Source: Massariosphaeria phaeospora
Taxonomy: Eukaryota > Ascomycota > Dothideomycetes > Pleosporales
NCBI GenBank assembly: GCA_011032825.1
Contig: JAADJZ010000001.1
Coordinates: 62,001 to 126,000 of the forward strand
Reading direction: 5' to 3'
DNA: 64,000 bases
In this document: piece by piece, positions 3,208 to 64,000 of the stretch
How the letters are laid out: each line of letters opens with the position of its first letter
Numbering within the stretch: the stretch's first letter is position 1
Notes under the pieces: generated by a model
What the model was told of the DNA's origin: nothing
What the model saw: the letters and a program-made list of their open reading frames with translations, nothing else
Database searches by the model: none
Translations under genes and position numbers: made by a program

Positions 3208-5118
3208 TATTCTCTGAGCTTTGCTGTGTGTGTGAAGGGGACGAAGGAAGCGGAGATGTTCATGTACTCACGTAATGCAGTATAAGGTCTAAAGAGGAGG
3301 AGGGGCAGTCTCGGCTGAACCCGGTAGAGGCCATCCAGGCGCTAATGACTAAGTGCCAAGGCGTTACTAACCTTACTTAGTAAGCAACTTTTAGCAGAGA
3401 GGACTTCGAGATTTCGCTCTCTCTCTCTCTCTCTTATCAATCTCTTAGTCTCTTAGTCTCTCAATTTCAATCTCAATCTCATCTATCGTATCTATCTTTT
3501 CCATCTCATCTATCTCATCGGCAGATAACGCGATTCAGACACGGGAGATGAAATTACCAAAGTTGCTAACGTAAAGGAGGGGCAGGAGGGGCAATTCAGA
3601 TAGAGGTAGAGGAGATCCAGAGCTAGAGCGACAATTCACCCGCAGCTGCCTAGCTAATGTCAGCTTACCTATAGCTACCTATCGCGTCAAACGTGCGCGT
3701 TAATTCACCCGTAGCTACCTCTACATGCGTACTATATATACCTGTAAACTATACCTACTACTAGCTGCCGCCCTAGAACCTTCTTTATGTAGATTTTCGC
3801 GTGTCTTATCTAAGATATTAACTCTGTAGCAGTCTCAACTACCTATATTGACTCCGTAGCAGCCCGATCCGTAGCGCAGACAGACCAGCTCTCCCACTGC
3901 CCACCATCCCCTAGAAGTAGCTAGACAGCGCGCACCCACCTACAGATGAAAGGTTACATTTCATTTCAACTCAATTCATTTCTCACAGTCAAGGGAAAAG
4001 GAAGATAGAAGCAGAGATTTAACAGTCCGCTTGACAGGTTGCTTGAGCATTGCAGACTAGCTAACTGAACTGAACTGGACTGAACTGAATTCGACAGGTG
4101 CAGACATTTCCTTCACGACCGACAGCCACCGTGCTTGTCCCGTCGTCGCCCGTCTAGAACATGCTCAATTGAGCAAGTCAGCCAGTCCACCCTCAAAGCC
4201 CCTCCCTCAGCAAAGCCAAGTGAAGCAGCCAGTGAAACTCGACCCGAAGAAAAAGATTGATTGAGAAAAGAATTAGCCATTAGACCAATGCACGCTTCCG
4301 ATGCCATCGCCCCGTCATTGTCCGTTCCCATCGTGCGAATCGTCGGCCATTTCGTTCGTTCGTGAAGACCCCCCACGGAAACGGGAAAAAAACCCCGCTG
4401 ATCCGTCCGTCATAAGCGTTCATCGTCCGTCATATAGAGTTTGGGCCGTATGGCAGAAAGAGACAAAGGAGAAGAAAGAGGGGGAGTGGCCGCACGGAAC
4501 AAGTATAACCCAGGAAGGGAAAGGGGGAGAAGGAAGTATGGGTTGAGTGTCGTGCAGTGTGTGCATTGCAATGTACAAAGAGAGCCACGCAGTTGTGAGG
4601 GAGAGCGATGAGAGGCGGATATGGAATCCCGCCTCGGCAATGGAGCATGTTGCCAGGCCCAATGCCTTGGACCCGGCAACATCTCCGGCTTTCCCAACGC
4701 GTGGCTCGAATTAGGGAATCAGATTGGGGAAAAGCGACACAAGGACGGATCATGTAAGCGTAGCGTCATGAACCCACCGCTACGCCGAGAAGAAACAGTT
4801 ATAAAAAGAAAGAAGAAATCGGCCTTCCTCGACGCGATCAAGTATAATCTCCGAAGAAGAACTGAACACACAAACTAGAACGAAGGCCGGCCAAGGGCTG
4901 AAGGTAAATAAACGAAGTATGAACAAATAACATAGGAGATGCTTTTAGATATGGCAGATGACAAGCCAGATGCTAGATGTGAGTCCCCTCTCACAGTGAG
5001 ATGATGCTAAGATGCAATAGATGCAATTGGCGGCGCTCAAAGGTCACCGGTGCCGGACAACGCCGTTCATGCAGTAACCAGGCAGATGCTCAAACGTCAA
5101 CCCGAAAGAGTCGGTCCT
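3208..5118. other. Intergenic: CT microsatellite and TA-rich low-complexity DNA
   Basis: A (CT)n run lies at 3415-3434 and continues as TCTCAATCTCA/ATCTATC-like repeats to about 3520. From about 3600 to 3860 the sequence is a TAGCTACC/CTACCTATA-rich low-complexity tract with near-repeats (CACCCGTAGCTACCT and CACCCGCAGCTGCCT), as in decayed fungal repeats. 3960-4095 has TGAACTGAACTGGACTGAACTGAAT-type repetition. No convincing coding frame. Confidence 0.5.
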
Positions 5119-35300: not shown

Positions 35301-38300
35301 AATCTTGTGTCCCCAGTTAGATTCGCTGATGCTTTACAATACCTCGCAGTGACTGCGCCAAAACTAGACCGCAACCACACGTTCTACGATTTTCTGGAAG
35401 TGGGCCCACATGGTGCTTTGCGACGGCCTGCGAACGACTCTTTGGGGAGTTTTGCTGGGAAAAAGCGCGCCAGATACAGTTCCCTGCTTTCTAAGTTCGA
35501 CTCTCCTTTGAAGACGACCTTTGAAACCGCCGGGCGATTGTTCTCGTACGGGTACTCCATGTCAATTGCTGCAGTCAATGGAAAAAACTACGCCACGCAG
35601 CCTCTGGCTTCCTTGGTTGACCTACCCGAATATCCCTTCGATCACTCGCAGACTTACTGGCATGAGACACGGCTGAGCCGAGAGTGGCGACTCCGAGGAT
35701 CTGCTCCGAGAGCCATACTCGGCATCCGCGCAACAGACTGGAATCCGTTAGAGCCGCGGTGGAGGAAGTCATTGAGCATCGACGAGATTCCGTGGATCGC
35801 GGACCATGTAGTCGGAGACAACGCACTCTTTCCAGCCACGGGCATGCTCATGATGGTACTGGAGGCTGTGAAGCAAACAGCGCATGCAGATCAAACTATC
35901 ACTGGATACTTCATTAAAGAGGCCACATTCATGAATCCTATCGTGGTAGGCCCTGGACCCGGCGGAAAGACGGAGGTAGTGACGCAGCTACGGTCTCTGC
36001 AACAATCGTACGAGAAGACTTCAGTGCGCTCGGAAGTGCGGCTGTATGCCCGAGCTGATGGCGATTGGTGCGAGTGTGTGAGGGCTACAGTGCACACTGA
36101 GTACGAGGACACCGCTACTGAAGTCGATGGTGGTCTCGAGGCTCGCTCTAATGCCGAACAGTTGCTGCGCAACTATGAGCACGCACAGCAATCGTGCAAG
36201 AGCGCTGTGAGTAAGCAGGAGTTCTACAAGTGGCACCGCGAGCAGGGTCTGAAGTATGGAGAAGCCTTCTCACTCGCCGAGGATATTTACTGGGATGGCG
36301 GAGAGACTGGGGTCGCTAGTGTCGATGTGAACACTCCTACGAGTGGATATGAGGGCGTTGTTCATCCGGCTGTGCTTGACGCTGCGTGTCAAGTCTGCTT
36401 CACGGCTCCATCTAATGGCATGTTGAAACAGCTTCCCACAATCATCCCTCACAGAGTCCACGACACCTGGATAGCCGCTTCTGGGTGGCAATACCCTAAA
36501 ACCAGTCGCATTCGTATGTTGACGACGTCGAAGTTCAAAGCAACTGTAACAGGCCTCGATTGCTCCTTCACCGCTTTGGCTGACGATGGAACTCCACTTT
36601 GCCATGTTAAGCGCCTGGAAATGTTGCCGGTTTTGGGTAACGAGTCTAAGAACGACAGCGAGAGGAAGCTCCTCCACGGTGTTGATTGGAAACCCCGATT
36701 GTCTCTGCTCGAGCCGGAGCAGCTGCGTGAGGTCTGTGCCGTAGACCACTTCCCCGACGACGAGACAGCCACGATCGAGTACTGCCTCGAGCTAGACAAA
36801 AGTCTCCGGACAGTAATACAACGCGATATGGACCGTTTGCTGACAACAGATTGGTCCAAGGTTCCACCGCATTTCAAGAAGTTTGTGACGTGGATGGAGC
36901 GGCAAATCCAGCACATACCCGGCCAAACCATAGACGAGATTAGTGACGAGGACTTGGCTGCGAGACTGCAGGTTCTACGAAACCAAAGGCCCGCCTGGAG
37001 GATGTTCATCGAGATTGCTGAGCAGCTGGTTTCCATCGTCAACGGCGAAACCGATCCTCTCGAGTTGCTTTTTTCTTCCGACATGGCCCAAGACATCTAC
37101 GACGAGTTCTTCGGCCAGATGTACAACCACAAGTTCATCACCTACCTCAACCTAGCAGCCCATCAAAACCCGACTCAGAAAATCCTCGAAGTAGGCGCTG
37201 GGACGGGCGCCATGACTAGTCGCATTCTCTCGACGCTCAGCGACGTTGAAGAGCACACTGGAGGCACCGCGTTCGCTAACTATACGTACACGGATATTTC
37301 GCCGGGCTTTTTCGAAAAGGCGCGCGATCGATTCTCGGACTACCGGGATCGCATGACGTTCAAGCCGCTCGATCTCGAAAAGGACGTCACGGCGCAGGGC
37401 TTCGAGGCGGGCAGCTACGACATGATCCTCGCTGGAAGCGTGCTCCACGCGACGAAGAACCTGGCCGCAACACTGCAGAACCTCCGGCGCGCGTTGAAAC
37501 CCGGTGGCCTGCTCATCTTTCATGAGACCACTGCGCCGGATTCTTTTGTGATGAGCTTCGGGTTCGGCATCCTACCTGGCTGGTGGTGTAGTGACGAGAA
37601 GTTCCGTGCTTGGGGGCCGACTATCACGGAACCCGAGTGGGATCGTGTGTTGAAAGAGAATGGATTTTCTGGGAACGATCTTATTGTCAGAGACTATAAA
37701 GACGAGGCCGCTCATTTCTGCAGCGTCATATTCACCTCGGCTGTTGTTGATGATGTCCAGCCCGGGCTTGAAGGGTCGCGAATCGTGCTTGTTACCGATG
37801 ATGGGAATGAACGCCAGAGGAGCGTTGCTTCATCTTTCGTCGATTATAGTCCTCGCCCATCAACCAACCGGACAGCCGTTTATTCAGTGAGCCAGCTCAA
37901 GGATGCCGATGTCTCTCGAGACGACTACGTCATATTTCTTGCTGACATGGAGCCATCTCTGCTTTCGTCAATGTCGGAGTCCTCGTTCCAATCGGTTCGG
38001 GACTGGGTCAGACAGTCGGAGAACCTATTGTGGGTCACTTCAGCGGATATATCTGACGAGTCGCGTTCAAATACCTATCCGTATGCCGGCTTGAAAGACG
38101 GTTTCCTCCGGACGATACGTGCAGAGTACACCAGCAAACGCATAATTTCCTTGTCTCTAGAAAACGGTGCGAATGACTCGGCTTCCCACATCTGGAAGGT
38201 CTTCAACTCTGCTTTTGGAGACCAATCCTCGGAGGTGGAATATATCATCCAGAATGGCTGCATATCAACCGGACGTTTGACAGAAGAGACTGGGCTGAAC

Positions 38301-40617
38301 AACGATTTGAACTCTTCGATCGTACCTCAGAGTAGAACAGAATCTTGGTTGCCAGGTCCACCACTGAAACTAGACATTGGAAGTCGTGGCTCGCTTGAAA
38401 CTCTCCATTTTGCCGAGGATGCGGACTACAACAACTCCCTCGGACCCTTGGACGTGGAGCTCGAAGCAAAGGCCTGGGGTGTCAATTTTCGCGACATGTT
38501 CCAAGCTCTTGGACGGCTAGACGATGCTGGCTTTGGATCTGACTGTGCTGGTATCGTCACGCGAGTAGGTTCCTCCTGCACGACAGTCAAGCCTGGAGAC
38601 CGTGTCTGTATGTCCGTCGTCGGGTCTATGCGAATGTATCCACGAGGCGATGAATGGGCGGTAGTCAAGATCCCAGACTCTGTTCCATTCGAAGAGGCCT
38701 GCGCGGTGCTGAACCCGGGCATTACCGCATACCATTCGTTTGTTGATGTAGCTCGTCTGCAAAAGGGAGAAAAGGTGCTCATTCACTCTGCTTCCGGCGC
38801 CACCGGGCAGCTGGCCATCCAGGTTGCGCAAATGGTCGGCGCAGAAGTGTTTGCTACGGTTGGCTTTGACCACAAGAAACAGCACCTCATCGACTCGTAC
38901 GGAATTCCTGCAGACCACATTTTCTACAGCCGCAACACAACGTTTGCCAAAGGCATCAAACGAGTTACCCAAGGCTATGGCGTCGACGTCGTACTCAATT
39001 CGCTGGTAGGGGAAGGGTTGCGAGCCTCCTGGGAGTGCGTTGCTCCATATGGAAGATTCGTGGAGATTGGCAAGGCCGATATCAATTCGAATTCCCCTCT
39101 TCCAATGGCATGCTTTGCGAACAATGTTTCTTTCTTCGCGGTCGATCTTCGCCACATCTCGTTTCATCGCAAGGAGACGGGCCGTCGTTTGATGCGTACG
39201 ACAATGGAGTTGGCTGGGAACGGAAGCATTCACTGCCCGAAGCCGCTGAATCTTTATCCGATTTCGGCGGTTGAAGAGGCGTTTAGGTATCTGCAGAGCG
39301 GGAAGAATACTGGACGCATTGTTATCCAGATAGATCCTTCTACCGAAGTCCAGGTAAGTCAACTGTGTGCCGGACTGGACACATGCTGACAATGTTAGAA
39401 ACGAGTTTTACATCGACGAACATGGAGGTTTGAGGAAAACGCCACTTACCTTGTTGCAGGTGGCCTGGGTGGTATTGGAAGATCGATGCTGAAATGGATG
39501 GTGGCGAAGGGAGCAAAGAACTTAATTGTCCCATCGAGGTCTGGCGCCACGTCTGAAGCAGCTATAGAGGTCGTGGAAGGACTATCGCAACAGGGCGTTA
39601 TAGTTGCGACTCCGAAGTGTGACGTCTCTGTCGCCGAGTCGCTCTCCGAGGTGATGACTGAATGCGCAAAGACGATGCCGCCGGTTCGTGGGTGTATCAA
39701 CGCCACGATGGTGCTGAATGTAAGTGCTGTAACACCTGTACACAATGCAGACGTGGCTGACTTTCGGGTAGGACTCGACGTTCGATAACATGACGCACGA
39801 CCAATGGACAGCGACCATCCGATCAAAAGTAGACTCCTCATGGAACCTCCACAAATTGCTCCCCCACGACCTCGACTTCTTCATCCTCCTCTCGTCCGCC
39901 GCCGGCGTGCTCGGCAACGTCGGGCAATCGAACTACACAGCCGGCTGCACATTTCAAGACGCACTTACCCGGTACCGTGTGCACCACCAGCAACGAGCCA
40001 CGTCCGTCGACCTCGGCCTCATGCGCACCATCGGTATCGTCGCCGAAACCGCGCGTCTCCACGATAACTTCAAAGGCGCCCGCAGCCTCGGCCAGCTCGA
40101 AGAAGAAGAGTTCCTCACGCTGCTCGACATCTACTGCGACCCGCAGCGCTCGCCGACGCTGCTCACGCCGGCCAAGAGCCAAATCGCCATGGGCCTCGTC
40201 ACACCCGTCGACCTGCTCGCGCGCAACCTCGAGCCCGTCGAGCTGCTGCACCGCCCGTTATTCGCACACTTCGCACAGCCGCGCAACACCACGGCGCTCG
40301 CGACCGGCCCTAACAATACCGTCAGCGCCTCCGCATTGTTCCGCCAAGCCGAGACCGACGAAGAGCGCGCGAGCGTCGTCGTCGACGCCCTGGCGAAGAA
40401 ACTCGCGCGCGCGCTGTCGATTGCGAGTGAGGAGGTCGACGTCGATAAGCCGCTGCATGCGTTCGGCGTGGATTCGTTGGTCGCGGTCGAGCTGCGCAAT
40501 TGGATTGGGAAGGAGTTTGCGGCGGATGTGGCCGTGTTTGATATTATGCGCGGGAGGACGGTGGCGGCGATTGGGGAGCTGATTACGAGGGTTAGTCAGG
40601 TTAGGAGGGGGGCGTAG
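32346..40617 (+). CDS. Highly reducing type I polyketide synthase, 2620 aa, nine exons
   Basis: Exons: 32346-32522, 32578-32722, 32772-33040, 33088-33521, 33573-33729, 33779-34625, 34687-39353, 39399-39719, 39772-40617. All introns are GT-AG, 45-61 nt, and restore one frame of 2620 codons. Domains in order: KS ([25 protein letters not shown]; 1-430), AT (TGQGAQY about 630, GHSSGE about 718), DH (His in [14 protein letters not shown] about 1048, Asp in [10 protein letters not shown] about 1236), MT ([12 protein letters not shown] about 1509), ER ([10 protein letters not shown] about 1935, [12 protein letters not shown] about 2045), KR (AGGLGGIG about 2249, QSNYTAG about 2392), ACP (FGVDSL about 2570). 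No thioesterase, reductase or condensation domain follows, so chain release needs another enzyme; the AOS at 27.7-29.3 kb is the obvious candidate. All catalytic residues are present, so it should make a fully reduced, possibly C-methylated chain. Confidence 0.95.
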
Positions 40618-45866: not shown

Positions 45867-48083
45867 ATGCCTTGCAACCCTGCTAACGCGAAAAAATACG
45901 CTAGAGAGGCGGTAGATTTGCAGCTGCACGCGTCGCACCTTCGCACCTACACAGCGCCCAACCTCAAATCGTACGCTACAGTCCACAACCTCCCTTACGC
46001 TCGCCTGCGCCGTGCCTATCTCAAGCTCCCAACGCGATCTGATCGTGAGGCAACTCAGCTGCTGTCGCCTGCCCAAGATCTCGCTCTCGTGCGCTTTATC
46101 GACTCGATTGACGCTATCGGTTTGGGGATACACCGGGTGCAGGTTGAGCAGCAGGCAAACCTGATACTTCAAGAGTCGTATTTGGGAGTTGATGAGGCCC
46201 CTCCGCCGTTGGGTAAACATTGGGCGCGCCGCTGGCTACAGAGGCACCCAAAATACAAGCGCGTCAAGGCAAAGCCAATGGAGATAGCGAGGAAACTCGC
46301 CCAGCAACTAGAGGCGCTGCGCGCCTGGTTCACGACTTTAGAGAGCCACATTGAACGCCTGGGCGTGTTGCCTCGCGATACGTACAATATGAACGAAACT
46401 AGCTGCCAGATTGACGTCGCAACCAGCCAGTACGTTTACAGCCGATATGGGCGCCAGATTTTTATACCTAACGCCAACAACCGCGAGTTGATGACTCTCG
46501 TAGAGTGCGTGAGCGCCGACGGCGAGGCAATAACGCTTCTAGTTATTATCAAAGCAACTACAGTAATAGAGCACTGGATACCTGACTTGCCTAAAGACTA
46601 CTTTATTAACGTTAGCGACAGCGGTTACAGCAACGATCAGATAGCGCTTGACTAGCTTAAACACTTTGATAAGATGACAGCTAGGCGACAGCAAGGCGTA
46701 TGGTGGCTACTACTCGTTGATGGCCACGGATCTCATGAGACGAGAGAGTTTGCTCAATACGCTGAGGATAATCGTATTCTGCTATACTCGCTGCTACCTC
46801 ACACGACTCACATGTTGCAGCCACTTGACGTTGGCTGTTTTCAACCACTCAAATGGTATTACGGTCGCCAGCTTGACTGGGCTGCTCGCGCTGGGTCCAA
46901 AGATATAAGCAAAGCTGACTTTCTAGCGACTGTAGCAGAGATCCGACGTCTCACGTTTACCCGCAGCACTATACTAAGCGGTTGGCAACATACAGGGCTT
47001 GCGCCGTTCAAACCTGATATTGTACTTCGTCAACTGAAGCTACTAGAAAACTGCAACTCTAGCGACGACGAGCGCTCGCCTACGCCTCCGCTACCTGTAC
47101 GCTCTACAACGCCTATAGTACTCTCCTCGCCGCCAAAGGTTGGCTCGTCGCCATCTCGCGAGCCATCTCGCGCGCCCACCCGGCGCTACAACCACGTCAA
47201 GATTGACCTACAACAGGCGCAGCTCGTCCGCCGCGCCTACACGCCTACAACGCCAGAGCCAGCAGAGCCAGAGCTGGGGGACGCCGCCTGGCGCACGCCA
47301 AAGACTGTACGCCAAATACAGGCGCAGGAGCCTTTCGTCCAAGCTGTGCTGCGTCAACACCTCCCTCGAGAGGTTGCTGCCAGCGTTATCAAACACCAGC
47401 GGGGCGTCTCAGCGCTCGCTCGCGCGGCGGGTGGGCTGCAGCGAGAGCTGCGCAAAACAGAGGCAGCTGTGACTGCTAACGATGAGCGCCGGCGCCGAAA
47501 ACGGCGTGCGCTTGACGTCAAGGGTGGCCCAATCTACGCCCAAGACGCGCGCGCGATGGTACAGCAGCGGGTCGTCAACGACGCTGCTCGCGCTGTACGA
47601 GACGTTACAGCTAAACAACTTCGCCAGATTACAGTTTTACTTAACAAATACCTCAAGGTACTGCCTCCTGTGAGGAACTGGGGCAGAAAGTACGTCAATC
47701 GAAGAAAGGCAAAGGTTGTAGCCTACCGCAACGTCGCCCGCTGGGTACACCCCCTTGACGACGAGCGCTACAACACTATAGCAGCGAGCAAATTGGAGTA
47801 TATACCGCAGCCGAGCAGCCTCAAATATAGGCGCAAAGTAACCGACGAGTTGACGCTAGCTATTGACGTGGCTGGCCAGGTGCGTTGCCTGATTGACCCG
47901 TACAACAAACTCGTCATCGCGAAACTACAGGCAGAAAATCAACTACGAGAGGAGCAAGACAGTCAGAGGAGAGCAGAGAAAGAGGACTCACTGCTGGCTC
48001 AGCAATCTCGTTCACAAAGCGTCAAAAACGAGTCTCAACCTGCCCCTACAGAGTTGCTGGATGAGGTCTCTGATGAGGCCTGA
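45867..48083 (+). pseudogene. Pogo-family DDE transposase, broken by one amber codon
   Basis: One frame runs from ATG 45867 to TGA 48083 (738 codons) except for TAG at 46653-46655. Before it: an N-terminal helix-turn-helix region, a CENP-B-type HTH (HRVQVEQQANLIL, GKHWARRWLQRHP) and the first catalytic motif. After it: LLLVDGHGSHETREF (second catalytic Asp) and LLPHTTHMLQPLDVGCFQPL (third). The stop replaces a Trp expected in IALDWLKHFDK (TGG to TAG). The first motif reads YNMNETS where active relatives have NMDETG, so the first catalytic Asp also appears lost (GAC to AAC). The copy is therefore probably inactive. The long Lys/Arg-rich C-terminal half is common in this family. Confidence 0.88.
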
Positions 48084-50804: not shown

Positions 50805-51139
50805 CCCATCGTATGCCGCAGCTGTATCTAAACACACCTGCTCAAAAGCCAGCCCTCACCCATGGCCATGGTCGCGGACGTTTTCCAAGCAACAACAACA
50901 CTCGCCAAACACACATCGATCTGTGACTGTTCGTATTTAGTCCACAAAACTAGCACCGACGCAGAAATCCCCACGTTCGCCCGCGGATTCGATCGATCCC
51001 GAACATCCATCGATCTAGCATTATTCATGTTTAGTCCACACAGCAGCACCGACGCAGTCATGCCGACAATTTCATATGGATTCGATCCCCAGTGACAAAC
51101 ATAGGTAAACATCCAGATCTGGTTCTGGTGCGGTGACAT
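50805..51139. repeat. Tandem repeat, period about 97 bp, flanking the large array
   Basis: Two full units and a partial one: CATCGATCT, then TTTAGTCCACA, then AGCACCGACGCAG recur near 50912-50967 and 51007-51060, and GGATTCGATC near 50986 and 51080. Each unit also ends in CAT (GAACAT at about 51006, AAACAT at about 51102). Begins right after the GH20 stop codon. Confidence 0.65.
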
Positions 51140-54100
51140 TTTTGCACGCACGAGCTCATATAAACGCTTTTACTTGGTCTTTCTTTTACCAGCACATGTC
51201 GGTCATGTAGTATAAGTTTCCTTCTTTCGTTGTAGCTGTGCCGCTTGTACAAAGCAGGACGCGACATGAAATTTTGATGTTGTGAGCTTTTAGACGGGTA
51301 GAGAGAGAGGGAGAGGGAGAGAAACAACATGCGTGTTTGTGTGCGTGTGTGTGTAGGTTTTATTTTAGAGGGACGCAGAGCACATGGAACTCTATAAACC
51401 ATGGGTTTTCGCTGCAGGACGCAAGCGCCGCATAAAACGTCTGTCATCTTTTTTTTAACTCTGCTGTTTTGACCAATGGGACAGACATATATTCTAACAC
51501 GTGTAGTTTTTGGCGGACAGACTGAGCCGAAACATAAAAGTTTAGCATGTGTCTTTTACAAGCACTCAGAGCACGCAGCAGGAACTCATGTCGTTGTTGC
51601 TATTGCTTTCTTCTTCGCCGCGAGACGCAAACGGCGCATCGTGGACCACACGCTCTGTTTTTTTCTGCTTCGACCGACGCGACAGGCATGTATTCCAAGA
51701 AGTGTCGTTTTAGGCGCACAGGGCGAGCCGAGACATAGATTGGCCCCTGTAGCTCTTTACGAGGACGCGGAGCACGCGACAGGAACTCATAGTCGTTTCC
51801 GTCGTTCTGTTTTTGAGCCGCGAGATGCAAGCGCGTATAGTGCACGATGGGTTCCGTTTTTTGACTGAAGTCTGCTGTTTCGACCGACAGCACAGGTATG
51901 TATTCTAAGAAGTGTCGTTTAGAAGCACGGAGAGCTCAAGGCAGGAACTCATACCCAGCTGTCATCGTTGTTTTTGAGCCGCAAGATGCAAGCGCGCATA
52001 GATGTCTTAGTAGAGCTTTTTTGTAGCTATGCGGCTTCGTCAAGAACAGGGCCAGGAACGTCTTTGATGCAATGTCCTTGTTGGAGGACAGAGCGAGCCA
52101 GGACATTCGTCATATGGAACAACGTTTTTGAGAACACAGGAAGCCCGCGGCGGGAACTTATACCCAGCTGTTATCGTTGTTTTTTTACGCATGAAATTAT
52201 GTCTTTATCCTTTTTTGTAACGATGCAGCTTTGACAAGGACAGCGCCGGACATGCTTAACTGGATACGCCATTTTCGGCAGACAGAGCAAGGCGAGACAT
52301 GTATTTCTTATACTAACGTTTTCAAGACGGGGAGCGCGCGGCAGGAACTCATGTCGTTCGTAACACCAAGTTTTTTAGCCGCGGAAAGCAAACAGGCCAG
52401 CGCATATACTATGCGATGTAGTAGGTTTTAGTCTCGCACGCTCGAGATCTTCGACAAGGACGGCGCCAGACATGAGATCGGATTTGTGCCATTTTCGGCG
52501 GACAGAGCGAGCCGAGACATTTATTGTATTGGAAGAAGTTTTACGAGTCAGGGAGCGCGCGGCAGAAACTCATGCCGCTCTTGATTTGGCTTTTTTAGCT
52601 GCGGAGAGCAACCGAGCAAGCAGGCAAACGCACATGTCCTTGGGCATTAGGGGATTCTTTTGGTCTCGTAAGGTTGAGATCTTCGAAGAGGACGGGGCCA
52701 GACATGTGATCTGGGATGTACTGTTTTAAGCGGACAAAGCGGGAGGAGACATGTACGTTCCCTGGTAGACTTTTACAAGACGGGAAGCGCGCGGAAGGAA
52801 CTCATTTTGCATGATTGAGGCGGTTTTTTCGCCGCGAGAAGCAAGCAAGCAAGCAGGCGCACAAGATTGTTTGTAATATTAGGTTTTGTTCTGTAAGGTT
52901 GAGAAGTTCAAGGGTGCGGGACAACATATAATCTGTTCTGTGTTGGTTTAGGCGAACAGACCGAGCCGAGACATGCACGCTTTCAAGCGGCGTTTACGAG
53001 ACGGGGAACACGCGGCAGGAGCTCATGTCGTTCGTGACACCGAGTTGTTTCGCTGCGAGAAGCAAGCAAACGCACATGGGAACTAGGAACCACGTTCTTT
53101 GTTCCCGCGAGGTTGAAGAGTTGGAGGGGGTGGGACAGGACATTGTGGATCGGAGGTCCCAATTTTTGAGGGACACAGGGAGGCGCAAGCCATAAAGAAC
53201 CGGTACTTGCGATCTAGACTCATAAGATGGAGGTAGAGTGCGCGGACAGCAGCACGGAGGACTCATTCGGCTGAGGCCCATTGTTTTATTGACCGCAGGA
53301 AGCAAGCAGGGAAGCGCACATGGATGTTGTAACAACGCCTTTTTTATTCCGTGAGCTTGAGGACTTCGAGGGGGCGGGACAAAAAATTCAAGCTTTCAGG
53401 CACCGATTTTCCAGGGCCAGAAAGAGAGAGACGCGACATAACTATCTAACGTTTCCGGTTTAGACTCTCAAGATGGGGATAAAACGCCTGGACAGCAGAG
53501 GGCAAGAACTCATCCGAAGGTCTTGCTGACATCTTTGTTTCGCCGCAGGAAGCAAGCAAGCGCACATGGTTTGTGGTAATGCGTCGTTTTTTTGTTCTCG
53601 TACGGCTGAGAACTTTGAGGGGGCGTGGCGGACAACACATCCAAGCTTTCAGGCACTGATTTTCGACAGCCAGAGAGAGAGCGACAAGACATGTGCAATC
53701 GAAGCTGCATTTTAAGAAAGACGCAAGGGGCAGACAGGAGGACATAGCAAAGTTGTGTTGCGGTTTTTACTCTCTCTTCTAAGTCTGTTGTCTCCGAAGG
53801 ACGCGAGCGCACATGCGGGTGGTATTGGTGTGACTTTTGTTCTTGTAAGCTAGAGAGTTGAGTTTTGAGAGGGCGGAGACTTGGAAGACACATTAAGGTG
53901 TAGCTACGCAGATTTGGGGGAGCAGAGGGAGAGGCAAGACATGCGAGGTGGTATTCTATTTTTTGAGAGTATAATAGAGCCCGCGGACAGCACACAGCGA
54001 AATCTCATTCAGCTGTTGTCCAGTCTCTTATTAACCGCAGGAGGCCAGCGCACATACTGTATCCTATAGTCTTCTTTCTTCGTTTTCAAGCTAGAGGCTT

Positions 54101-57100
54101 TGAGAGAATGGGACGAGACATACATACCGGAGGATTGATTTTAAAAGACAGAGGGAGACAAGACATAGCGTTTTGCGTATTCAGATTTTAGAAGGAAAGA
54201 CTGCGCGGATAGAACACAGCAAAAACTCATCAGTCGAGGATTTTTGGTTTGTCTTTTAGTGCAGGAAGCAAGTGCACATGTGGATAAAAGTTTGCGCGAC
54301 ACATTTCGTTTTTCTCTCTCTTTTGCATCTCAAATAGGCTTTTCGACAGGGCGGAGCAAGACATACATCTTGTTCTATTAATTCTTTACTAACAGAGGAA
54401 GCATCGGGATAGAATCTTTCGGCTTGTGCTCTAGATGGATAGAGAGCTCAGACAGCACACAGCAGAAACTCATCTACTTGTTTTCTGTAGATTTTCTTTC
54501 AGTACCAGCAGCAAGCGCACATGCAATCTCTGCATTGTGCCTTTTTCCCTTTGTTTGCATCTCTAATAGAGAGTTTTCCGAGAGGGTGGAACACGACATC
54601 AGATATAACCGATTATTTTTGAAGTAACAGAAAAAGCATCAAAGTTGTATACTTCAGCTTTTGCTATACAAGGATGGAGACCGCAGGCAGCACACGGCAG
54701 AAACACATCATTCTGTTGAAATCTTTTCCTTTTGTGCCACCGCAGGAAGCAAGCACTCATGCATTTACTTCAGTGACTGTTTTGGTAGCCCAACAGCTTT
54801 GACTGGGTGGGAACAAGACATAAATCGTTTTAGGTATTGCTTTATAAGAGTTTCCGGTGTCGAGGGCCGGGCGCGGAAAACACAGGGAAAGACATGTATA
54901 CTACCTAATGTTATTTTAGAAGCAGAGGAGCAAGAGGAAAGACACATGCATTGTCTCGCCAAATGTTTGAGGATGTAATGTAAAATGCAGAGGCGCGAGA
55001 GCAGTCACGACTATGACGATTACCGCTTTTGTTGCTGGAGAGAACGCACATATCTTTTCGATAGTTCCGTTTGTGGTCCTTCTTTCTTAGTCGCTTTAGA
55101 TCGAAAAGCCAGTAGGAAAACACATGTCTGAGGTCGTAAAACGTTTGTATACGAGGAGAGCCGGGCGAAGAGGAAAACATGTAGCTGGACGAGAGTATTT
55201 TCTTGCCCAAAGCGCGCACATGGAAGTCACATTCAGCCACTTTAGTCGTTCAGAACACTGTGAGGAGTTTGAGTCTCAGGCGCATCGAGAGCATTTCCCT
55301 CGCTTTTGTTCGTTTTTCGTGCAAAAGGGAAGAGCCGAGCAGAGGGGAAGACATAACGATCTTGGCGAAGAGTTACGATGTAAAGTGGACTTGCGGGCAG
55401 GGCAGAATCCATGGCTGTGAAGTCGATGTTATTATTTGCCGGGAAGTACACCCATGAAAAGGGAATTTCGTATATTTTTCAATCGGGTAGGTAACAACAG
55501 TGAGGAACAGGAGCATGACAGTCTTCATTAGGAATTGTAGAGAGCACGCCATAGAAGCATCTGAATTTAGTTTCGTTTTTCCGCGTGAGTTGAAGAGGTC
55601 CAGGAAGGAAGGTGAGCGAACCATGCCCAGAAGGATGTATGAATTCCTGCGACAGAGAGCGCGCATACGCGGCCTGGAATTCTCTTTTTGAGTCGTTTAC
55701 GATGTCGGTACACTGCGGAAAAGAACATGCTAGACTTGCGCTGCGATTTTGTAGCATACACGACACATTAGGGAGTAGTATCGTTGATTCTTTGTAAGTT
55801 AAGGTGGTATAAGAAGACGCAATCATGATAAGAGCATCGTTGAATTTATTACCAAAACGAGGAGCGCATATGGCAGCAATTCTACGTTCTTTTAGACACA
55901 CAAGAGGAAGCCATCGTCGTCTTCCTTTGTCGTCTGGACAAGAGAGGAGAGCGGGGTGAGAGAAGACATATAGCGATATGTGTAATCTTTTAAGAGGTCA
56001 AAAGTCCAGGCAGGAAGAAAGACTCATTTGCATATAGTGCAATCGTTTCTGGCGGCGGGACGAGGAGCGCGCATTTGTATGTCTACTCTTAGATTTGAGA
56101 CACGCCGAGAGAAAGCCATTGTCTTCTGCGTTTTTCTTCTATAGAGGCGAGCCGCGAGCCGCGAGCGAAATCATTGCGATGGGGGGGTAGTTTCTTTTAC
56201 GCCATGCGAAGTTCAGGTCTGCAGGCGAAAAGACGAACTCATGTTCCAATGTATTCGATCCTTTTTTCACTTGATGGAGCGCACAACATCCGATGTCATT
56301 GCAGTCTTTTCATGCCAGTATTCGTTTATAATTTAGGGGTCCCACACCGGAAGGAAGAAAGCATGCAAGTTTATCGCAGTCTTTTGCAAACGCAAAGACA
56401 TCAAAACGCATCATCGCTTTTTTCTAAATCAAAGAGTTCCAGACGGAAAAGAGAGACACATAGTTGTAGACTATCTGGAATTTTCGTCGACAGAAGAAGC
56501 GCGTGAACCATACAGAAGCAAAACTTGGCTTTCAAGGAAGCACAGAAAAGACAGACAGACATGAAAATCATTGGCCAATCTTTTTCAATAGCGTACAAGT
56601 GCGGACCAAAACCACATACATATCTCCGTATCTCTTGTTTTCCTTACAGATTGGAGGATGGCAGAAGCTGAAGACGCAGATTCCATGGCAATTTCCCACT
56701 TTATTTCTGGGAAGCTCGGGACAGGGCCGCCAGACATGATAATCTTCATATATGTTTTTGATAACACAAGCGAGACGAACAAATTCACATAAATGGTTGC
56801 TTCTTCCTGTTTTCTTCAAGGTTGAATTGGAAGCTTTCCGAAGAGACACATGAAAGCTAGAGCGTAATTTTTGATAGGGAGAAGCGTATGCAGTATTTCG
56901 CAGTAGTGTTTAGGGCTATAGAGTTTGGAGATGAACGCGGAGAAGACGCACATCAAGAGGGCCTGCCGTATGTTTGATGCAGACCGCGCGCGAGGTAGAG
57001 CGCACATGGGGACGCTGTTCTTATATTTATAAAGTCTAAATCCACGGCCGGAGAGCAACACATAGGTGCTTTATCAACGAAGTCTTTTCCTAGAGTATCC

Positions 57101-57480
57101 TTTTTGGTCCGGAACGAAACCCCTATGTATCTCTACATGTACATTTCTGCCGAGGAGAGACCATGGATCCGGCCAATAATCGTTTTTGGTATATTCCCCG
57201 TGCGAGACAAAGAGTTCATCGATGCAACAGCATTCGATTTTGTAAGATCAAAGATCCCAGGAGCATGGACACACATGTTTAATGCAGTCAATGATTTAGA
57301 GTAGGAGGTAAACCTCTTGTTCAAGTCCATGAGGGTGCAGATAAGACAGAATTTGAGGCCATGCGAGTATGATATGTTTTATGGAGACCGCGCGCGGGAG
57401 GCGAAAAACACATAAGAAGTGGTGTCATTCTTTCTCATTTTGAATCCCCAGAAGCAGATGACAGCTTATTGTCTCAAACT
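51140..57480. repeat. Large non-coding higher-order repeat array: four CAT-ending modules (A-B-C-D), period about 225 bp
   Basis: Modules of about 45-75 bp each have a variable 15-25 base head, a T-run (TTTT), a G/A-rich stretch and a terminal CAT. Four types recur in order. A ends GAGCCGAGACAT (51734, 52298, 52518, 52750, 52972, 53191, 53437, 53690, 53940). B ends CGGCAGGAACTCAT (51587, 51788, 51950, 52350, 52571, 52803, 53024, 53264, 53511, 53743, 54006, 54228, 54471, 54706, 54945). C ends GCAAGCGCACAT (51997, 52633, 53075, 53319, 53565, 53812). D ends GGACGGGGCCAGACAT (52251, 52471, 52703, 52925, 53141, 53638, 53890). At least eleven cycles are clear; B spacing ranges from about 160 to 263. 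Around 51900-51950 one A module is fused into B. Stops occur in every frame and B positions change frame from cycle to cycle, so no single protein is encoded. I do not recognise this family. Confidence 0.85.
54285..54300. repeat. TAAAAGTTTGCGCGA match inside the array
   Basis: Fifteen bases identical to the dispersed repeat copies at 18490 and 22812, same orientation, immediately after a C-module end (GTGCACAT). Confidence 0.45.
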
Positions 57481-60400
57481 TCTTATATTTAAGTAGTAAA
57501 AGCGCATATGTTCGTGGAGCCATTCGTTTGCTTCGAGGTTTGCAAGTTTAAAGAATTCATAGGAGGAGACGGAAACATGGTCAAGGCGATATACTTTCGT
57601 GTCTGACCAGAAGCACACATAGTGAAAAATAACACATAGTTTTCTGAGTCTTGCAAGAGAAAGAAACATATGAGTTGTTTTTTGAGTCCTTGGGATAGCG
57701 AAGGGGCGCAGAAGAGGCGTAGACATTGCGCCTTGGTCGTTTTCAATTGCTGAGTTCAGAGCTTGAGAGGCGGGGAAAGGCTCATTCCGAATAACAGCAG
57801 TGGGTTTTGCTGTAGCGCATGCTGGGCATATCTCTTGATTTTCAGTTCCTGAACATATCGAGTTTATGGTTATCATCTCTGTAGAGGTGAGAAGCCACAA
57901 GAGCATGTAATTGTTGTTAAGGCGCTTTTGGTCACATGATCGGCAACGTAATCCAATTTGTGCCTTAGGAAGCAATCAGTCGGCGCGTTCAGCGAACATC
58001 CATTTTCGCCATAGTAGTTTTCTCAGAAACAAACCATCTAACTAACAGCGCATGAGTTTTGAAACCACAAATCTCAAGGACGAATCATTTTGTAGGTCGT
58101 AGATACAACCCGTCATTTTCAACCTGGAAATTCAGAGGGAGATGAAGGAGGGGCTGGAGCAAATTATCCGCACACATTCGTTGAATATTTTTTTCGTTTT
58201 GGTAGTTTCAGGGGGAGAGGCATTCAGAGCCACTAGGCAAATTTAGACTTCCAAAGAACAGATGTCGATAGGTTGTAGGTTTTGAGACAGCAGGACCGTG
58301 TGTATAATACAGTCGATAAAAGCAAAGCTCATGTGGGTATTCGGCATCGTATTCTCATCCAAGAGCAAAGAGGGAAGTCCAGAAGTCCTCCGCTAAATCA
58401 CGTGAATAGCATCGAAAAGTAGTAACACCATATATCCATGGTTCGTAATTTTTGTGATCTCGGCGAGCGACAAGAGTGCCATTTTGCGACGTGTTGGCTG
58501 ATTTGAATCTCAGCCAAAGACTCCATCAGTGATTCCAAACGGCACTTTCTTGAGTTTCATAGTCCACACGTAGAGTGGGAACATCAGATTCAGTTTCTGT
58601 CATTTTTCGAGTTCTTTATTGACCTCATCGGGACGCTTTGAGTCAGTTTTCGAGGTCCAGAGATATTGTCGACGACTGGAGAACAAGAAGACCATAATGT
58701 GCACCAGGTTATGTGTTTTGAATGTCGAGCTTAAAGGACGGACTCCATTAAGTTTGTTGCTCGGTATTTGAGTATGATCCAACAGAACGGGAACTTCTAG
58801 GCTAGGTGACCGTTGCAAGAATCTTTTAAGTAACCACTCGACACCATGGAAGCGTTTTACTGCAATTCAGAGATCCAGAGATCCGGAAGCGAGCATAGTA
58901 TAATCATGCCCGCGAGGTCATGGGTAACAGAACGAAACATTTCGTAGAGAGGAGGTACGCGGAGGTCATCATCGAGAGCGTTCATGAATTCTTTTTAACC
59001 TCGAGCGCAATAAACGAAAACCGTGTTGACGCTCCATAACAGTATGGAGTTTGGCAGTTAGGGGTCGTTTTCCGATCCTGTTTCACATGATGAATTTCAT
59101 GCAGTCTTTAAATGTAGCAAGAAACGTTTGAAGGGTTCTGGACGATGTCGCACTGCTTCCAAGGACCGGAGATCCAGCAGAGAAACATCAAGCGGTTGTA
59201 CAGTGTTTTTTTACCGGGAAGGCCATAGCTCTGTCCTGAGGATTTTAATCGATCGAATGGGGATAACGAGTCTATGAGTGTTACTTTCAGTCTTGTTGTT
59301 TAGAGCGTGAGGAGGTACTCCGATTATGACTGCCTTATACCGATTCCTTAGTCACAAAGAGAGTGCCAACTACGTTTTGATTACCGTCCGAGCTTGACAG
59401 AAGACTCCATGCCACGACATCAACTGAATTTTGTGTCGAGATGCCGTAGCTTGACATTTCCTGGTGTATTGTGCTTTTATTCGACGATGCTGGACGCAGG
59501 CATTTCCAAAAGCCTTGAAGTGTTTGTAGAGCGGAGATCAATGTATATGGCGGTTATGTGTAGACGTACACCGTGGGAATGTAGTAGAAGGAACACCAAA
59601 CGGTACTCCTTTGAATTTGTAGTGCAAAAGAGTCGATACATGTTTGTCGAAGGGAATTTTGAGGGGGGGGGAGCGAAGAGGGCCAACATGTAACGGGGTC
59701 GCTGGCTGTTTGTTGATGCCGGTAGATTTATCGGTAGTAAGAAACGCGGGGAAGGAAAAGAACGCATAATGCTCAGATGTGTTCTTTTAATGGTTCTGGA
59801 CGCAAAGGAGCAGAAGGTCATATCAATAAAGATCAGGTGTTTTCGTTGCGCCAGGAGAAGAAAAGATTCTTTGTACGCTGTGACTGAGTGCGTTGATGTT
59901 GTTCAGTTTACATCTCCCAGCCAGGTCCAGAGTCGCTGGAGTTCATTTATACGATCCAGTTCCGTTAAGATCGGTAATGCGTGGTGACATGGCGCAAAAC
60001 ATGGACTTTCTTCATCGCGATTTGGCCCCCGGGACGAGGAGACCAGAGCAGGTCATCAAGTGGTAGAAAGCGTTATTATTTTTACTCAGCGGCGAGCAGG
60101 AAGCGACATGCAGCTTGTGAGAATAAGTTTTTCGGAGCAGATCGACAGAAGAGGAACTCTACAGTTTTGGTCGAGGGGCAAGCAGTTTTAACAGGTACAA
60201 GGAAACTCAGAATGTAGTAAGAGTAAAGTCTGTCGAGCGAGACTTTTTAATAGAAGCATCCGGAACAAATCTTGTATAAGGTGACTATTTCCATGAGCTC
60301 TCAAACCAGGCGCATTCAGCATCAAGATTCAAAATCCGGTTCCTCGGGGATGTTTGGATGTTTGAGGCAGCCGCACACTTAGCGTCTATACATGGTGCTC

Positions 60401-61200
60401 CATTCAACCTTATTCTTAGAAGAGAAAACACCAAGCAAAGAGCCATGGAGTGCTGGTTGAGTCTTTTTGTTGTTGATGTATAGAGAAGTTGTGGTAGAGA
60501 GTAGGCCAGTCCAAGCAGAGTGGTATATACATTTGAGAAACGCGTCCGACTCGCATACTGATTGACGCCTGGTGAAATTCTTTCTTCTCATGAGTTGACG
60601 AGTGTCAGCACAGCCCTGCCTATGTTTGGGTGCTGTTGCATTTTATTTCTCGATATCAGCTATATGTTTACTAAGCTTGAGTTTCATTGAACTGTGCGCA
60701 TCCAACGAGAGCATGTATCTTTTTGAACCGTTTATTAGAAGAGCACACACGGACAGAACCCATGTGTAGGTTCTAACAAGCGTTTTGAATTGCGGGGCGG
60801 CCTTGGAGAAAAGATCATAGTCTAGAGGTTCTGGAATTTGGTCCGAGCGGCGACCAAGAAGAGGTCATCTTTTGACAGTGTCGCAAGTTTTCTAGTAGGA
60901 AACCCGGAAAACAAATATAAAACATAGTCTTTTAGAAGGGGTGGCGACCGAGGGGAACCATCAGAATTGGCTCTTAGTATTTTATTCCCCGTTTTGACTC
61001 GATGGAAAGATAGCGCAGAGAGCCTGAAAGTTTGAGGGACTCTTGCGGGCTTATATAGTGTTGAATGTAGGATCAGGAGGTTTGTTCGCAAGTTCTCGCG
61101 ATCAGCATCGGGCGTACGATGCCGGTGTGCTCCTCCCTAGTGTAGCTGCAGATCATACAGGCCGAGTCCAACAGCGACCTCATCGTATAAGCCACGTGCA
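57481..61200. repeat. Degenerate continuation of the CAT-module array
   Basis: The same texture (T-run, purine-rich stretch, CAT) can still be followed, for example GAAGCACACAT near 57620, GAAAGAAACAT near 57670, GCGTAGACAT near 57725 and GGGAAAGGCTCAT near 57785. Beyond about 58 kb the module types can no longer be assigned. No gene is supported; open frames stay below about 115 codons and match nothing. The right boundary near 61.2 kb is approximate. Confidence 0.5.
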
Positions 61201-62140
61201 AAAACAATACTCTTTCGAGAGATAAAACGACAAGGACAGGTAGAGGAAATGGAGGAAAGCAGAAAGATGAGGATGATCTGCGCCTAAAGAAGTCACGTGG
61301 TAGACAAATTCCATCTAGACGGCTTCGATTGACCAGGCGTTCAACATCGACTCAGAGACTGAGCTGTATGGCAGGAGGTTTCGAACATAAACCACATCAA
61401 CATGATTTTACGTTTCTAACCTTGAAGCGCATGCTCGCACCAACAATTGCTTACCTATGGAGTACAAGTCTCGGATTCTGTTTCTTCCGATGACTTGACA
61501 CTGCGTCATTGATTCCGCCCGGACGAATCTTACTAAGTCCGAACCTCCTGCATAAAGGCGTGCCCTTTTGGAAACAGACTACAAAACAAGCGTACGGATG
61601 ACTGAGTTTTCCTGTTTGAGGTACAAATAAAGGGACGAAGTTGCTGGATGGTTTTTGTTGTGTTGATTTGATGAAACTGTACGGAGTACATCCCGAATCT
61701 TGCGCCTTAGTTCTGATCGTTTGACTCCAGGATGCGAATCTCGGATCTTGCGGCGAGGAAAGCAAGCTTTGTGGATTTAAGCGCGGAGCTAGCCTGGTTA
61801 GTAGCTAATGCAGTCCGTCTATTTCCAGCCCCTAGAGTTAGGGCATACCACCGTGCAGCGTGCTTAGCCAACATAGCTAGATCCTCGCGCTGAGTCCAAT
61901 GGCATGCATCTATCACGGTGCTAAACAAGTGAGCACGGTCATTTCGTTCGAAATTGGCCCCATATGGCTGCGATCCCAGCCAGTAGGGGCGGGACATCGG
62001 GGGCGGAGCCACGAGGCTGCGCAAGGCGACCCGCGCCCGAAACCTTAGCGCCCTTAAGCTCGAAGTTCCCGTTCCTCTTTAACGGGTTTGTCCTGCGTCT
62101 TCTCGTCCGCTCTTGCTCTCGTTCACTGTGCGCTTTCAAG
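61201..62140. other. Intergenic; upstream side of the membrane-protein gene
   Basis: A minus-strand frame at 62024-61707 (105 codons) has helical character but no recognisable domain and is not accepted. The plus-strand region 62040-62140 is C/T-rich (GTCCTGCGTCTTCTCGTCC), as in fungal 5' leaders. Confidence 0.4.
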
Positions 62141-63205
62141 ATGTTGGCTCTTTTCTTTTCGTTCGCCATGCTCTTCGGCGCATCAAGATGCGACCCTCAA
62201 CCACCCGCCGTTACTGCTCGCGCTCTTTTACCGAGAGCAGATTTACAGACTTTTGGATGGTGGTCCATTGGGATGAATGTTGATGTCACAGTTTGTGAGC
62301 AAGCCCAATTCTCTACTCCAACCGGCATATCTAACGTTCCTCTAAAGACTCGGCGTGGATTTTCGATCCGGAGGTCGCTCCTATCACATCGTCGGCAGGC
62401 TACTGGGTAGACTATTGCGCAGATCAGAGCGGATATTGCGATATTCCGACAAGTTGTGGTGGCGGATCGCTCTACTATTCGGGGACCCGAAGTGAAGACC
62501 CATGGTGAGACTCACTACAAGTCTTCTTTGCCCGTTTCGAATCGTTAATCGCCTACAGCCCAGTAACCCAGGATGGCAACGCCTTCGTCTGCATAACTGA
62601 TTACCTGTATGCGAGCCTTAGCGCTTCAACACCGCTGTTGTCGAAGGTGGGGTGTGTAAATCAAGAGGCCAGAACTTACTTCAGAGAAAGCCCAACCACG
62701 GCTGGTATGTACTCTATCCTCATATAGACTCCTTTCCATGCTTCAAGCATCGCTGACTCGATTTTTAGCCGCATCAGGATCCTCTACAGGCGCAGCATCG
62801 GCCGGGAACACACCCATCAGCACATCCTCCAGTGGAAGCCCAAGCGCAAGTCCAAGCGCAAGTCCGTCGCCAGCTAGAACTCCACAAAATATCAAGACCG
62901 CTATTAATACAGGCGCTATTGTTGGAGGTGCAGTAGGCGGCGTCGTCGGTCTGGCCGCACTAGCTCTTCTCGCTTTCTTTCTCCTACGACGTTCCAAGCG
63001 CAAGTCCGCATCTGCGTCTTCCGGTGCATATGCGCCCACTGCTGGGACAGAATATCATCCTGCACCGACCCAACAAACGGAATATTACGGAGGACAAACG
63101 AAGGAACCGATGTATGCGCCCGGGTCTTCGCCACAACCCCAAGGGCACGCCGAGCTACAGGGAGAGAGCGGGTACGCAGCACCATCAAGAAGCGAGTTAG
63201 CCTAG
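62141..63205 (+). CDS. Single-pass cell-surface protein with Cys-rich ectodomain, 297 aa
   Basis: Four exons: 62141-62294, 62348-62504, 62559-62704, 62769-63205. Donors are GTGAGC, GTGAGA and GTATGT, acceptors AAG, CAG and TAG; one 297-codon frame results. Signal peptide LALFFSFAMLFGASRC. The ectodomain (about 25-150) has paired cysteines (YCADQSGYCDIPTSCGGG, FVCITDYLY, KVGCVNQ). It is followed by a Ser/Thr/Pro stalk (SPSASPSASPSPA), one transmembrane helix at about 200-228 (GAIVGGAVGGVVGLAALALL) with an RRSKRK stop-transfer, and a Tyr/Pro/Gln-rich cytoplasmic tail. This layout is that of fungal WSC/MID2-like wall sensors, although no named ectodomain is identified. The first intron uses a less common AAG acceptor, so exon 2's start is the weakest point. 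Confidence 0.78.
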
Positions 63206-64000
63206 ATGCCCGCAAGTTCGTTTTGAAAGCTATGCGATAAGCGTTATCTTTTCGCGTTGAAGGTTGGAATATTCGTTGGGTCATCGCTCTTAGGAGCTGG
63301 CTGGCAGGATGGAGGCGCATGTTGTGAAACTTTGTCGGTCATCGCAAGTGGCTGTCGGCCTCGCGCATGTTGAACGCGGGCTGCCGCCTCAAACTTTTGA
63401 AGCCCGATGATGTGCGAAGAGTGGAAGAAGAGAAGACAAGGCGTTTGATATGTGTCCCGGGAAGTCGTTGCCGGCCGAACCATGGTTTTACAGCGGCTCC
63501 ACAACTGAAGCGGCGTATCATGACGCGATGACGTCCCCTATTGCACAACCATCTTAATATTAAGAGTTCATTTACACTATTCTAATCACCGGGAGAGCTA
63601 ACTGACCAACTGTCTTATCTAAAGATGATAATATCCAAGAACAGGTGGCTCATACATTCATCATCGCGTTCGAACTCCAGGGCTGGTCAGCTCCATCATC
63701 ACTAACACAAGGGCAACAACACTACGAGCAAGCAAGCAAACGAGAACTCTGGGCTTCATTGAACCTCTGGACTGACGGTTTTTTCGCAACAATCTGACTC
63801 TCACCGGATCTACCTTAACGACTCTTTTCGGAGCAAGGCCATTAGATATACATTTGGTACGATCTAGAAACATCCCAGATCGTGTCGTTTCTTGGGTTTT
63901 GGTGATCGCCTTCCATGTAGATGGCTTCGCCCCCTTTCGAGACATATCTTGATCCTCAACCAAATTCCTGTTGTACACATCCCCAGGGCACATGTTCCAT
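63206..64000. other. Window end, no gene accepted
   Basis: Holds a copy of the GAACCATGGTT...CTCCACAA repeat (63477-63503). A minus-strand frame from ATG 63993 to 63661 (110 codons) starts almost at the window edge and could be part of a gene beyond it, but has no recognisable motif. Confidence 0.4.
63477..63503. repeat. Short dispersed repeat, copy 3 (GAACCATGGTT...CTCCACAA)
   Basis: GAACCATGGTTTTA, a short spacer, then CGGCTCCACAA, as in the copies at 1811 and 18759. Confidence 0.5.

Follow-up and report, generated by a model that had tools for sequence, protein, structure and literature searches.

The window, a 64,000-nucleotide stretch of the Massariosphaeria phaeospora genome (C1:62001-126000), carries two arrays of a short cassette in which spacing is conserved and sequence is not. 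In minus-strand orientation, the unit that is conserved consists of an A-run, 17-19 free bases, an ATG and an A-poor tail. Cassettes of this architecture, with the same fixed spacing, strand bias and linkage to TATA boxes, with no reading frame and no hairpins formed by their cores, occur at many sequence-unrelated loci in the genome (42.08 Mb in 51 contigs searched). The explanation that we favor, at a probability of roughly 0.42, is that Pol II transcribes these loci into RNAs in which the unique 18-nt segments serve as guide precursors, with transcription, processing and guide function all putative.

As judged from cassette density and fixed spacing, array 1 occupies 51140..61060 of the window on the minus strand, the inferred transcribed strand; its left border is approximate. 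One TATATAAGCCC box, at 61,057, precedes approximately 123 cassettes in 10 kb. This box (TATATAAG, 61050..61057, minus strand) is followed by CCCGC and a leader, and the combined promoter and cassette pattern matches at C1:122959-123057(-), which is window 60959-61057. The first cassette behind the box lies at 60959..60983 on the same strand, with its A-run at 60980-60983, a spacer of 18 bases and its ATG at 60961-60959. The 123 cassettes in 51,101-61,100 amount to a density of 12.3 per kb; the opposite strand has 0.7 per kb and control DNA 0.56. Array 2 begins at the right edge of the window (63757..64000, minus strand) and continues beyond it to about C1:130,120, a window-equivalent of about 68,120. 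Its TATA boxes lie on the minus strand at window-equivalents 67,496-67,503 (TATATAAG) and from 68,120 (TACATAAG), and 53 cassettes were counted in window-equivalents 63,701-68,150. Two plus-strand open reading frames, at 61,964-62,410 and 62,738-63,205, lie between the arrays.

The spacing rule was evident from simple distance counts. On the plus strand, the distance from each CAT to the next TTTT (C to first T) peaked at 21-23, with 46, 41 and 21 counts compared with 4.9 expected per position in 51.1-61.5 kb. When the array up to 61.5 kb was divided into three, every part had this peak, as did 63.9-68.1 kb, most of which lies to the right of the window; in the same cross-count the TTTT-to-CAT and CAT-to-CAT distances were broad. 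With 120 elements aligned on the CAT, bases between the CAT and the T-run were near random, and the approximately 16 bases preceding the CAT were poor in T.

An earlier note had described modules with a T-run, a purine-rich block and a terminal CAT at 51140..57480. Modules in which a T-run, a tail poor in T and a closing CAT follow each other do stand in succession on the plus strand: a simple module score applied to the whole window gave 83 modules on the plus strand compared with 6 on the minus strand, and 79 of the 83 falling in 50-62 kb. The array at that position is thus real, with limits that need redrawing, since array 1 reaches the TATA box at 61,057 and array 2 extends to about 68.1 kb. 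The strand had been taken backwards: the TATA boxes are on the opposite strand from the modules, and the “terminal CAT” is therefore an ATG about 18 nt after an A-run. From this arrangement, the minus strand is likely the working strand in the window.

The same note had proposed at least eleven cycles of four module classes (A, B, C and D) in fixed order, with a period of about 225 bp. Class matrices were built from four training modules per class, 16 in all. With these matrices, 17 of 18 steps followed the A-B-C-D order in 52,240-53,350, which is the trained stretch itself, as did 3/7 in 51,200-52,240, 7/18 in 53,350-55,200, 2/9 in 55,200-57,500 and 1/8 beyond 57,500. Over 51.2-61.2 kb in total, 30 of 64 steps were ordered, compared with a mean of 16.1 and a maximum of 28 in 2000 order shuffles, a comparison that took in the trained stretch (52,240-53,350). 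As the same matrices yielded 32 matches in 49 kb of control DNA, weak matches past 55 kb mean little. By the ordered-step counts for each stretch, there are about five clean cycles and further degenerate ones to about 55 kb, and not a firm eleven to 57,480. Tail classes remain recognizable in 51533..54893 (minus strand), with a cycle of about 220-250 bp that is cleanest in 52,250-53,080. Letter autocorrelation of 51.1-53.2 kb placed lags of 220 and 232 among the ten best, without a single sharp period at 225 bp. Tandem Repeats Finder reported no array in the module region. The observation that module ends are better conserved than heads was upheld, with an excess identity of 0.26-0.57 for tails and -0.02 to 0.17 for cores across the four window classes. 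So was the description of a common architecture rather than a common sequence.

In order to follow the cassette beyond the window, the genome was searched for ten non-T bases, CAT, 18 bases and TTTT, yielding 791 matches compared with 424 for the reversed pattern. Versions containing CATG raised the enrichment (216 vs 44 and 94 vs 17). A dispersed repeat, AACAAAGCAACATG, and its near variants make up 21 of about 100 matches listed for one CATG pattern; these are not arrays, and some matches to this repeat are also within the 791-match search. Among the matches listed on C1, clusters that are mostly one-stranded lie near 18-22, 113-129, 414-416, 539-543, 565-573, 784-792, 880-890 and 1662-1671 kb; at 539-543 kb, matches fall on both strands. 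Nine of ten C1 stretches taken around clusters showed the spacing peak on one strand (weakly in L013); the tenth, a flanking piece, showed none, and neither did ten other C1 stretches. In the cluster at C1:887-889 kb, conserved flanks enclose an 18-base stretch of near-random identity.

The ATG itself is specific. It was found 16-19 nt downstream of 708 A-runs 389 times compared with 63 expected, a 6.2-fold enrichment that makes it by far the top-enriched trinucleotide. The next enriched words (CAT, TGT, TGG, TAT, TGA and GAT, at 2-3.8-fold) all overlap ATG, and no peak at 17-19 nt was seen for any of nine printed variants that differ by one letter (CTG, GTG, TTG, ACG, AAG, AGG, ATA, ATC and ATT). 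Arrays of poly(A) sites were rejected as a source of the pattern, as they would not need exactly ATG. Eleven array segments on C1 and C13, with limits drawn around the arrays by the analyst, held 630 cassettes in 72 kb, at 5.2-12.6 per kb. Their opposite strand held 0.1-1.9 per kb and control DNA 0.56, the control count omitting three AT-rich control loci (L018, L023 and L024) that were without a spacing peak in a separate test. Core lengths were tightly grouped, with 17 bases in 84, 18 in 175 and 19 in 103 of 416 cores of 16-20.

The promoter and the cassette were then combined in one pattern. Across the whole genome, TATATAAG-N48..76-AAAA-N17..19-ATG gave 276 matches compared with 8 for the reversed pattern, and shifting the last spacer to N27..29 as a control left 9 matches and 7 reversed. 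The pattern VTATATAAGYCC gave 303 matches compared with 15 reversed. The genome may hold approximately two thousand cassettes in total, a rough scaling of the excess of 367 matches, part of which is the dispersed repeat, on the basis that the two window arrays hold 176 cassettes and yield 29 strict matches. When one 491-base piece served as a DNA query against the whole genome, the window array was the only one recovered, and arrays elsewhere have the spacing in common, with no shared sequence above baseline and none of the A-B-C-D class sequences. Viral contigs were also scanned for the promoter. None of the 6 stretches recovered had a spacing peak, including one (L040) with an AT-rich strand carrying 3.3 pattern matches per kb and a flat offset profile, and all 6 were taken as chance for this reason.

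The TATATAAGCCC boxes are opposite in strand to the modules and either head the arrays or, in several, recur every 200-400 bp inside them. In ten array loci, TATA[AT]AAG occurs 46 times on the transcribed strand and 3 times on the other, a count of this single motif recounted from a listing whose expression was wider on one strand. From the box onward, a unit reads as TATA, a CT-rich stretch, often CACAC, a short leader, CTAAAA, 17-19 variable bases, ATG and an A-poor tail. A second cassette often follows the first, and units carry from one to more than 100 cassettes. The A-run starts 64-78 nt past the TATA box in 30 of 42 units, and a cassette lies within 135 nt of 66 of 77 boxes (13 locus sets); of 2600 positions picked at random in those loci, 982 have one as near. 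In 22 of the 77, TGATGAT lies 10-150 nt upstream of the box, where 0.6 would be expected. Several clusters consist of tandem units about 300 bp apart, the median TATA-TATA spacing being 295 among spacings below 1 kb. L008, L012, L034 and L041-L043 appear to be built of numerous short tandem units, each holding one to four cassettes, and the 4.5 kb of L041 contain 15 such boxes. Three loci on other contigs that were selected by the TATA pattern alone had an ATG 17-19 nt after 17/33, 19/32 and 25/54 A-runs on the TATA strand, compared with 0/16, 0/7 and 3/11 on the other strand.

The cassettes do not read as genes of familiar kinds. Stop codons after the ATG were about equally frequent in the three frames (0.025, 0.027 and 0.022 per codon over codons 1-5 of 405 cassettes), and with no frame depleted of stops, a tandem protein-coding gene with the ATGs as start codons was rejected. 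The suggestion in the earlier note of a decayed repeat gene is likewise unsupported for want of any reading-frame signal. A depletion of TAA and TGA inside cores was discounted because control stretches have the same bias. Duplexes between core and flank were not beyond swapped controls in 410 cassettes, and the mean fold z of the window array was about 0 on both strands compared with shuffled sequence. A weak hairpin exists in the leader, where 69 leaders gave a mean z of -0.45 (s.e. 0.14) compared with 0.03 (s.e. 0.08) in a control stretch. A hairpin precursor was rejected, as no hairpin or duplex includes the variable segment, and for the same reason (410 cassettes) this segment is no ordinary Dicer substrate. 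Rfam 15 at gathering score returned 0 matches in the window and none in five array loci (L006, L008, L012, L013 and L034), and no tRNA was found in the window, which removes tRNA and Rfam genes as candidates there. Pol III small RNAs ending in TTTT on the other strand are disfavored by argument, not by data, in that the TATA boxes are on the opposite strand.

The variable segment appears free in sequence wherever it was compared. In six tandem families, tails were, except in L043, the best kept of six segments (weighted excess identity 0.18). Cores had an excess identity of 0.03 compared with 0.01-0.05 upstream of the TATA box; as the cores diverge about as much as that upstream DNA, they could be unconstrained spacer. 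Among 35 gene pairs with a leader identity of at least 0.7, core identity was 0.34 against a baseline of 0.35, and upstream (0.60 vs 0.55) and downstream DNA (0.62 vs 0.58) were little above their baselines. Of 13 windows compared in one compact array, the core showed the lowest conservation, a weak difference when compared with spacers (P 0.046). Diversifying selection on the core, hinted at in that array and in the window classes, was unsupported in the six gene families. Some of the cores are related to one another: same-orientation 10-mers common to the 416 cores numbered 88 compared with 8.6 in shuffles, an excess that we tentatively put down to recent duplicates and overlapping calls, and reverse-complement sharing was 4 compared with 6. 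Cores matched 190 kb of other DNA about as often as chance would give. No 5' U bias was seen where the variable segment starts (175 cores), and the only positions standing out near the ATG were C at -1 (0.45) and T at -3 (0.39, and 0.34 in a separate cassette count). Being free in sequence and fixed in length, the cores fit both a guide and a spacer.

Domains of RNAi proteins were looked for in the genome. Piwi domains were found at nine places (14 matches, the one on C12 partial), RNA-dependent RNA polymerase domains at five (7 matches, the one on C4 partial), and RNase III domains gave 6 matches, including two domain pairs that look like Dicers. One Argonaute reading frame, of 804 residues, matches a Massariosphaeria phaeospora protein at 100% identity from end to end, and L026 gives better matches with solved Argonautes of the AGO clade than with those of the PIWI clade. 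Nine Argonaute loci is a high number for Pezizomycotina by the figures quoted from a 2014 survey, an average of 2.66 with a range of 1-7 (PMC4290597). This expansion offers circumstantial support for guides.

Taking these results together, we infer that Pol II transcribes the units and that their working part is the variable segment. Array 1 would be an unusually long member of a family of non-coding units that occur throughout the genome and carry promoters of Pol II type. Some members have a TGATGAT-type element upstream; in each, a TATATAAGCCC box precedes a CT-rich stretch, a short leader that closes with CTAAAA, and the cassettes. The transcript would be cut at the A-run and the ATG, either directly or after copying by RNA-dependent RNA polymerase, to give RNAs of about 20-22 nt with differing 18-nt cores. 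These small RNAs would load the enlarged Argonaute set and form a genome-encoded guide repertoire that may work like animal piRNA clusters. This explanation is favored because the units bear promoters, because a free segment of small-RNA length lies between invariant borders and differs from copy to copy, and because of the enlarged set of Argonautes. Also in its favor, the 21-22 nt ruler has the size of a small RNA. Counted against it are the lack of any hairpin or duplex around the variable segment, the lack of a 5' base preference, cores that evolve no faster than neutral in the six families and matches to other DNA at chance.

Two suggestions of the earlier note, a small-RNA precursor and a protein-binding array, are both retained as readings, and the second takes two forms. 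An unlikely though credible one is a transcribed scaffold, a non-coding RNA with many two-part sites of A-run plus AUG that one protein would read at 18 nt across a free spacer, the RNA acting as a sponge or nuclear-body scaffold. A fission-yeast meiotic RNA carries clustered sites and provides a parallel. A scaffold suits a variable segment that evolves like unconstrained DNA, constraint on the A-run, ATG and A-poor tail only, and a 10-kb array behind one recognizable TATA box; however, the loci built from short tandem units with one to four cassettes are better explained by separate products. We are more doubtful that the cassettes act as DNA, through a dimeric DNA-binding or recombination protein reading the ATG and an A-tract two helical turns (about 21 bp) apart, in which case the arrays would serve as boundaries or as sites of docking, replication or recombination, with TATA boxes that are incidental or accessory. 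A spacing of 21-22 bp does equal two helical turns, the spacer is free and orientation is consistent inside arrays, but a pure DNA element needs no promoter placed as this one is, at a preferred distance, nearly always on one strand and sometimes with an upstream element. Most rigid bipartite DNA sites also hold a tighter spacing than the spread over 17, 18 and 19 bases seen here.

Translation would give the ATG a direct meaning as a start codon, with the A-run just upstream of the initiating ribosome and the A-poor tail in its entry channel, the units making tiny peptides or stalling on them. The enrichment of ATG at a set distance, shared by none of the printed one-letter variants, points this way, and the distance from TATA box to ATG would suit a compact fungal gene. 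Against this stand the equal frequency of stops in three frames, T as the commonest base at -3, which is a poor start-codon context, and more than 100 ATGs behind one TATA box, which together leave a role in translation improbable. Lowest of all we place an old satellite or decayed repeat whose pattern is left over from tandem duplication, for which there is scarcely any likelihood even though the window array has an A-B-C-D order and a divergence gradient. The same spacing is found at loci without common sequence and outlasts the recognizable sequence classes, and the spacing-shifted control was at chance. The heterochromatic satellite suggested in the earlier note is likewise unsupported, given TATA boxes on one strand within or heading the arrays and a spacing common to sequence-unrelated arrays.

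Among known systems, nematode type I 21U-RNA genes are clustered tiny Pol II units with a unique, non-conserved segment of about 20 nt at a fixed place relative to short signals, and the Ruby motif CTGTTTCA is the upstream element of these piRNA genes. Here too the units are clustered and the variable segment is fixed relative to short conserved signals, and what appears to be a promoter element lies near a variable segment of about 21 nt (64-78 nt in 30/42, with the 18-nt ruler). The differences are a TATATAAGCCC box that precedes the first cassette by about 70 nt, borders formed by the A-run and ATG, often two or many cassettes per TATA box, and a fungal host. Array 1 resembles an animal piRNA cluster as a long single-strand putative precursor, 10 kb behind one TATA box, with many differing small RNAs, though its cassettes are regular and set by a fixed ruler and its small RNAs are putative. 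Fungal milRNA genes share a genome-encoded small-RNA sequence, putative here, but their precursors are typically hairpins, and no hairpin surrounds the cores.

Other families share single features. As in a higher-order satellite, 51.5-55 kb holds ordered, diverged monomers in tandem; unlike in such a satellite, other arrays share the spacing without sequence above baseline and TATA boxes are part of the unit, so that a single monomer family is seen inside the window array and not across arrays. Tandem snRNA, snoRNA and spliced-leader RNA genes are likewise small non-coding tandem units with a period near 300 bp, whereas the 18-nt segment here varies from copy to copy and the window and five loci have no Rfam match. 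CRISPR-type arrays have near-identical repeats and unique spacers; here the flanks are degenerate and only the A-run, ATG and composition are kept. The V(D)J signal combines a CACAGTG-type heptamer and an A-rich nonamer across a 12/23 bp spacer, and the cassettes have only ATG/CAT and an A-run with a spacer of mostly 17-19. A link to Aspergillus MATE elements was considered, and a literature search gave nothing usable on it. No description of such arrays was found in the literature searched, most subscription journals being outside the search. No tested family fits the architecture, whose function is putative.

Even without a guide role, the genome contains hundreds of units, set by a spacing rule instead of sequence, that were missed by the repeat finder and Rfam as run, and the route by which they were discovered is reusable. 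Animals are known to encode clusters of autonomous guide-RNA genes in their genomes. We advance only tentatively the idea that about two thousand drifting 18-nt guides, in hundreds of co-regulated Pol II units and released by hairpin-free cutting into expanded Argonautes, could form an independent piRNA-like system in a fungus. If this is true, fungal guide-RNA clusters would be an independent invention of the animal logic, and they could account for the nine Argonaute loci kept in this genome.

The gene separating cassette arrays 1 and 2 (window 61964-63205) lies on the plus strand, opposite to the arrays, and is made of two ORFs, probably with introns in it; a hydrophobic stretch is also visible by eye. 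Elsewhere in the window, GC-rich tandem repeats at 10035-10899, with unit lengths of 15, 18, 21, 54, 69 and 75 bp, all multiples of three, fall within long ORFs of both strands. Polyketide synthase domains are spread over two overlapping ORFs at 33707-39389, and a partial match to a DDE_1 transposase was found at 46674-48083.

Three of the ten arbitrary stretches from contig C1 (L018, L023 and L024) are AT-rich, perhaps representing RIP-mutated repeats. T-runs are abundant on both strands of these stretches, and the cassette spacing peak is absent from them. The cassette pattern is imitated by a repeat, AACAAAGCAACATGTTYGCTARGC..., dispersed across the genome (e.g., C1:265763, C2:646350 and C6:800081), which is perhaps the end of a transposon.

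Argonaute genes occupy nine places in the genome (C48:1042k; C4:304k; C15:135k, 211k and 714k; C27:253k and 402k; C30:179k; C12:733k), eight of which were retrieved as stretches L026-L033. Pieces of the catalytic motif are present in the reading frames examined. Nine exceeds the Pezizomycotina range of 1-7 stated in PMC4290597.

At array locus L041, an inverted repeat recognised by eye (GGCAAACTGC...GCAGTTTGCC, ~4290-4400), perhaps a small transposon, is positioned after the last TATA box listed there. An element of the GTGATGATG type lies 40-120 nt 5' of TATA boxes, with examples at array loci L008, L012, L034 and L041; in L041 it is often followed, by eye, by CGCACC. This element may be the regulator site of the cassette-unit family.
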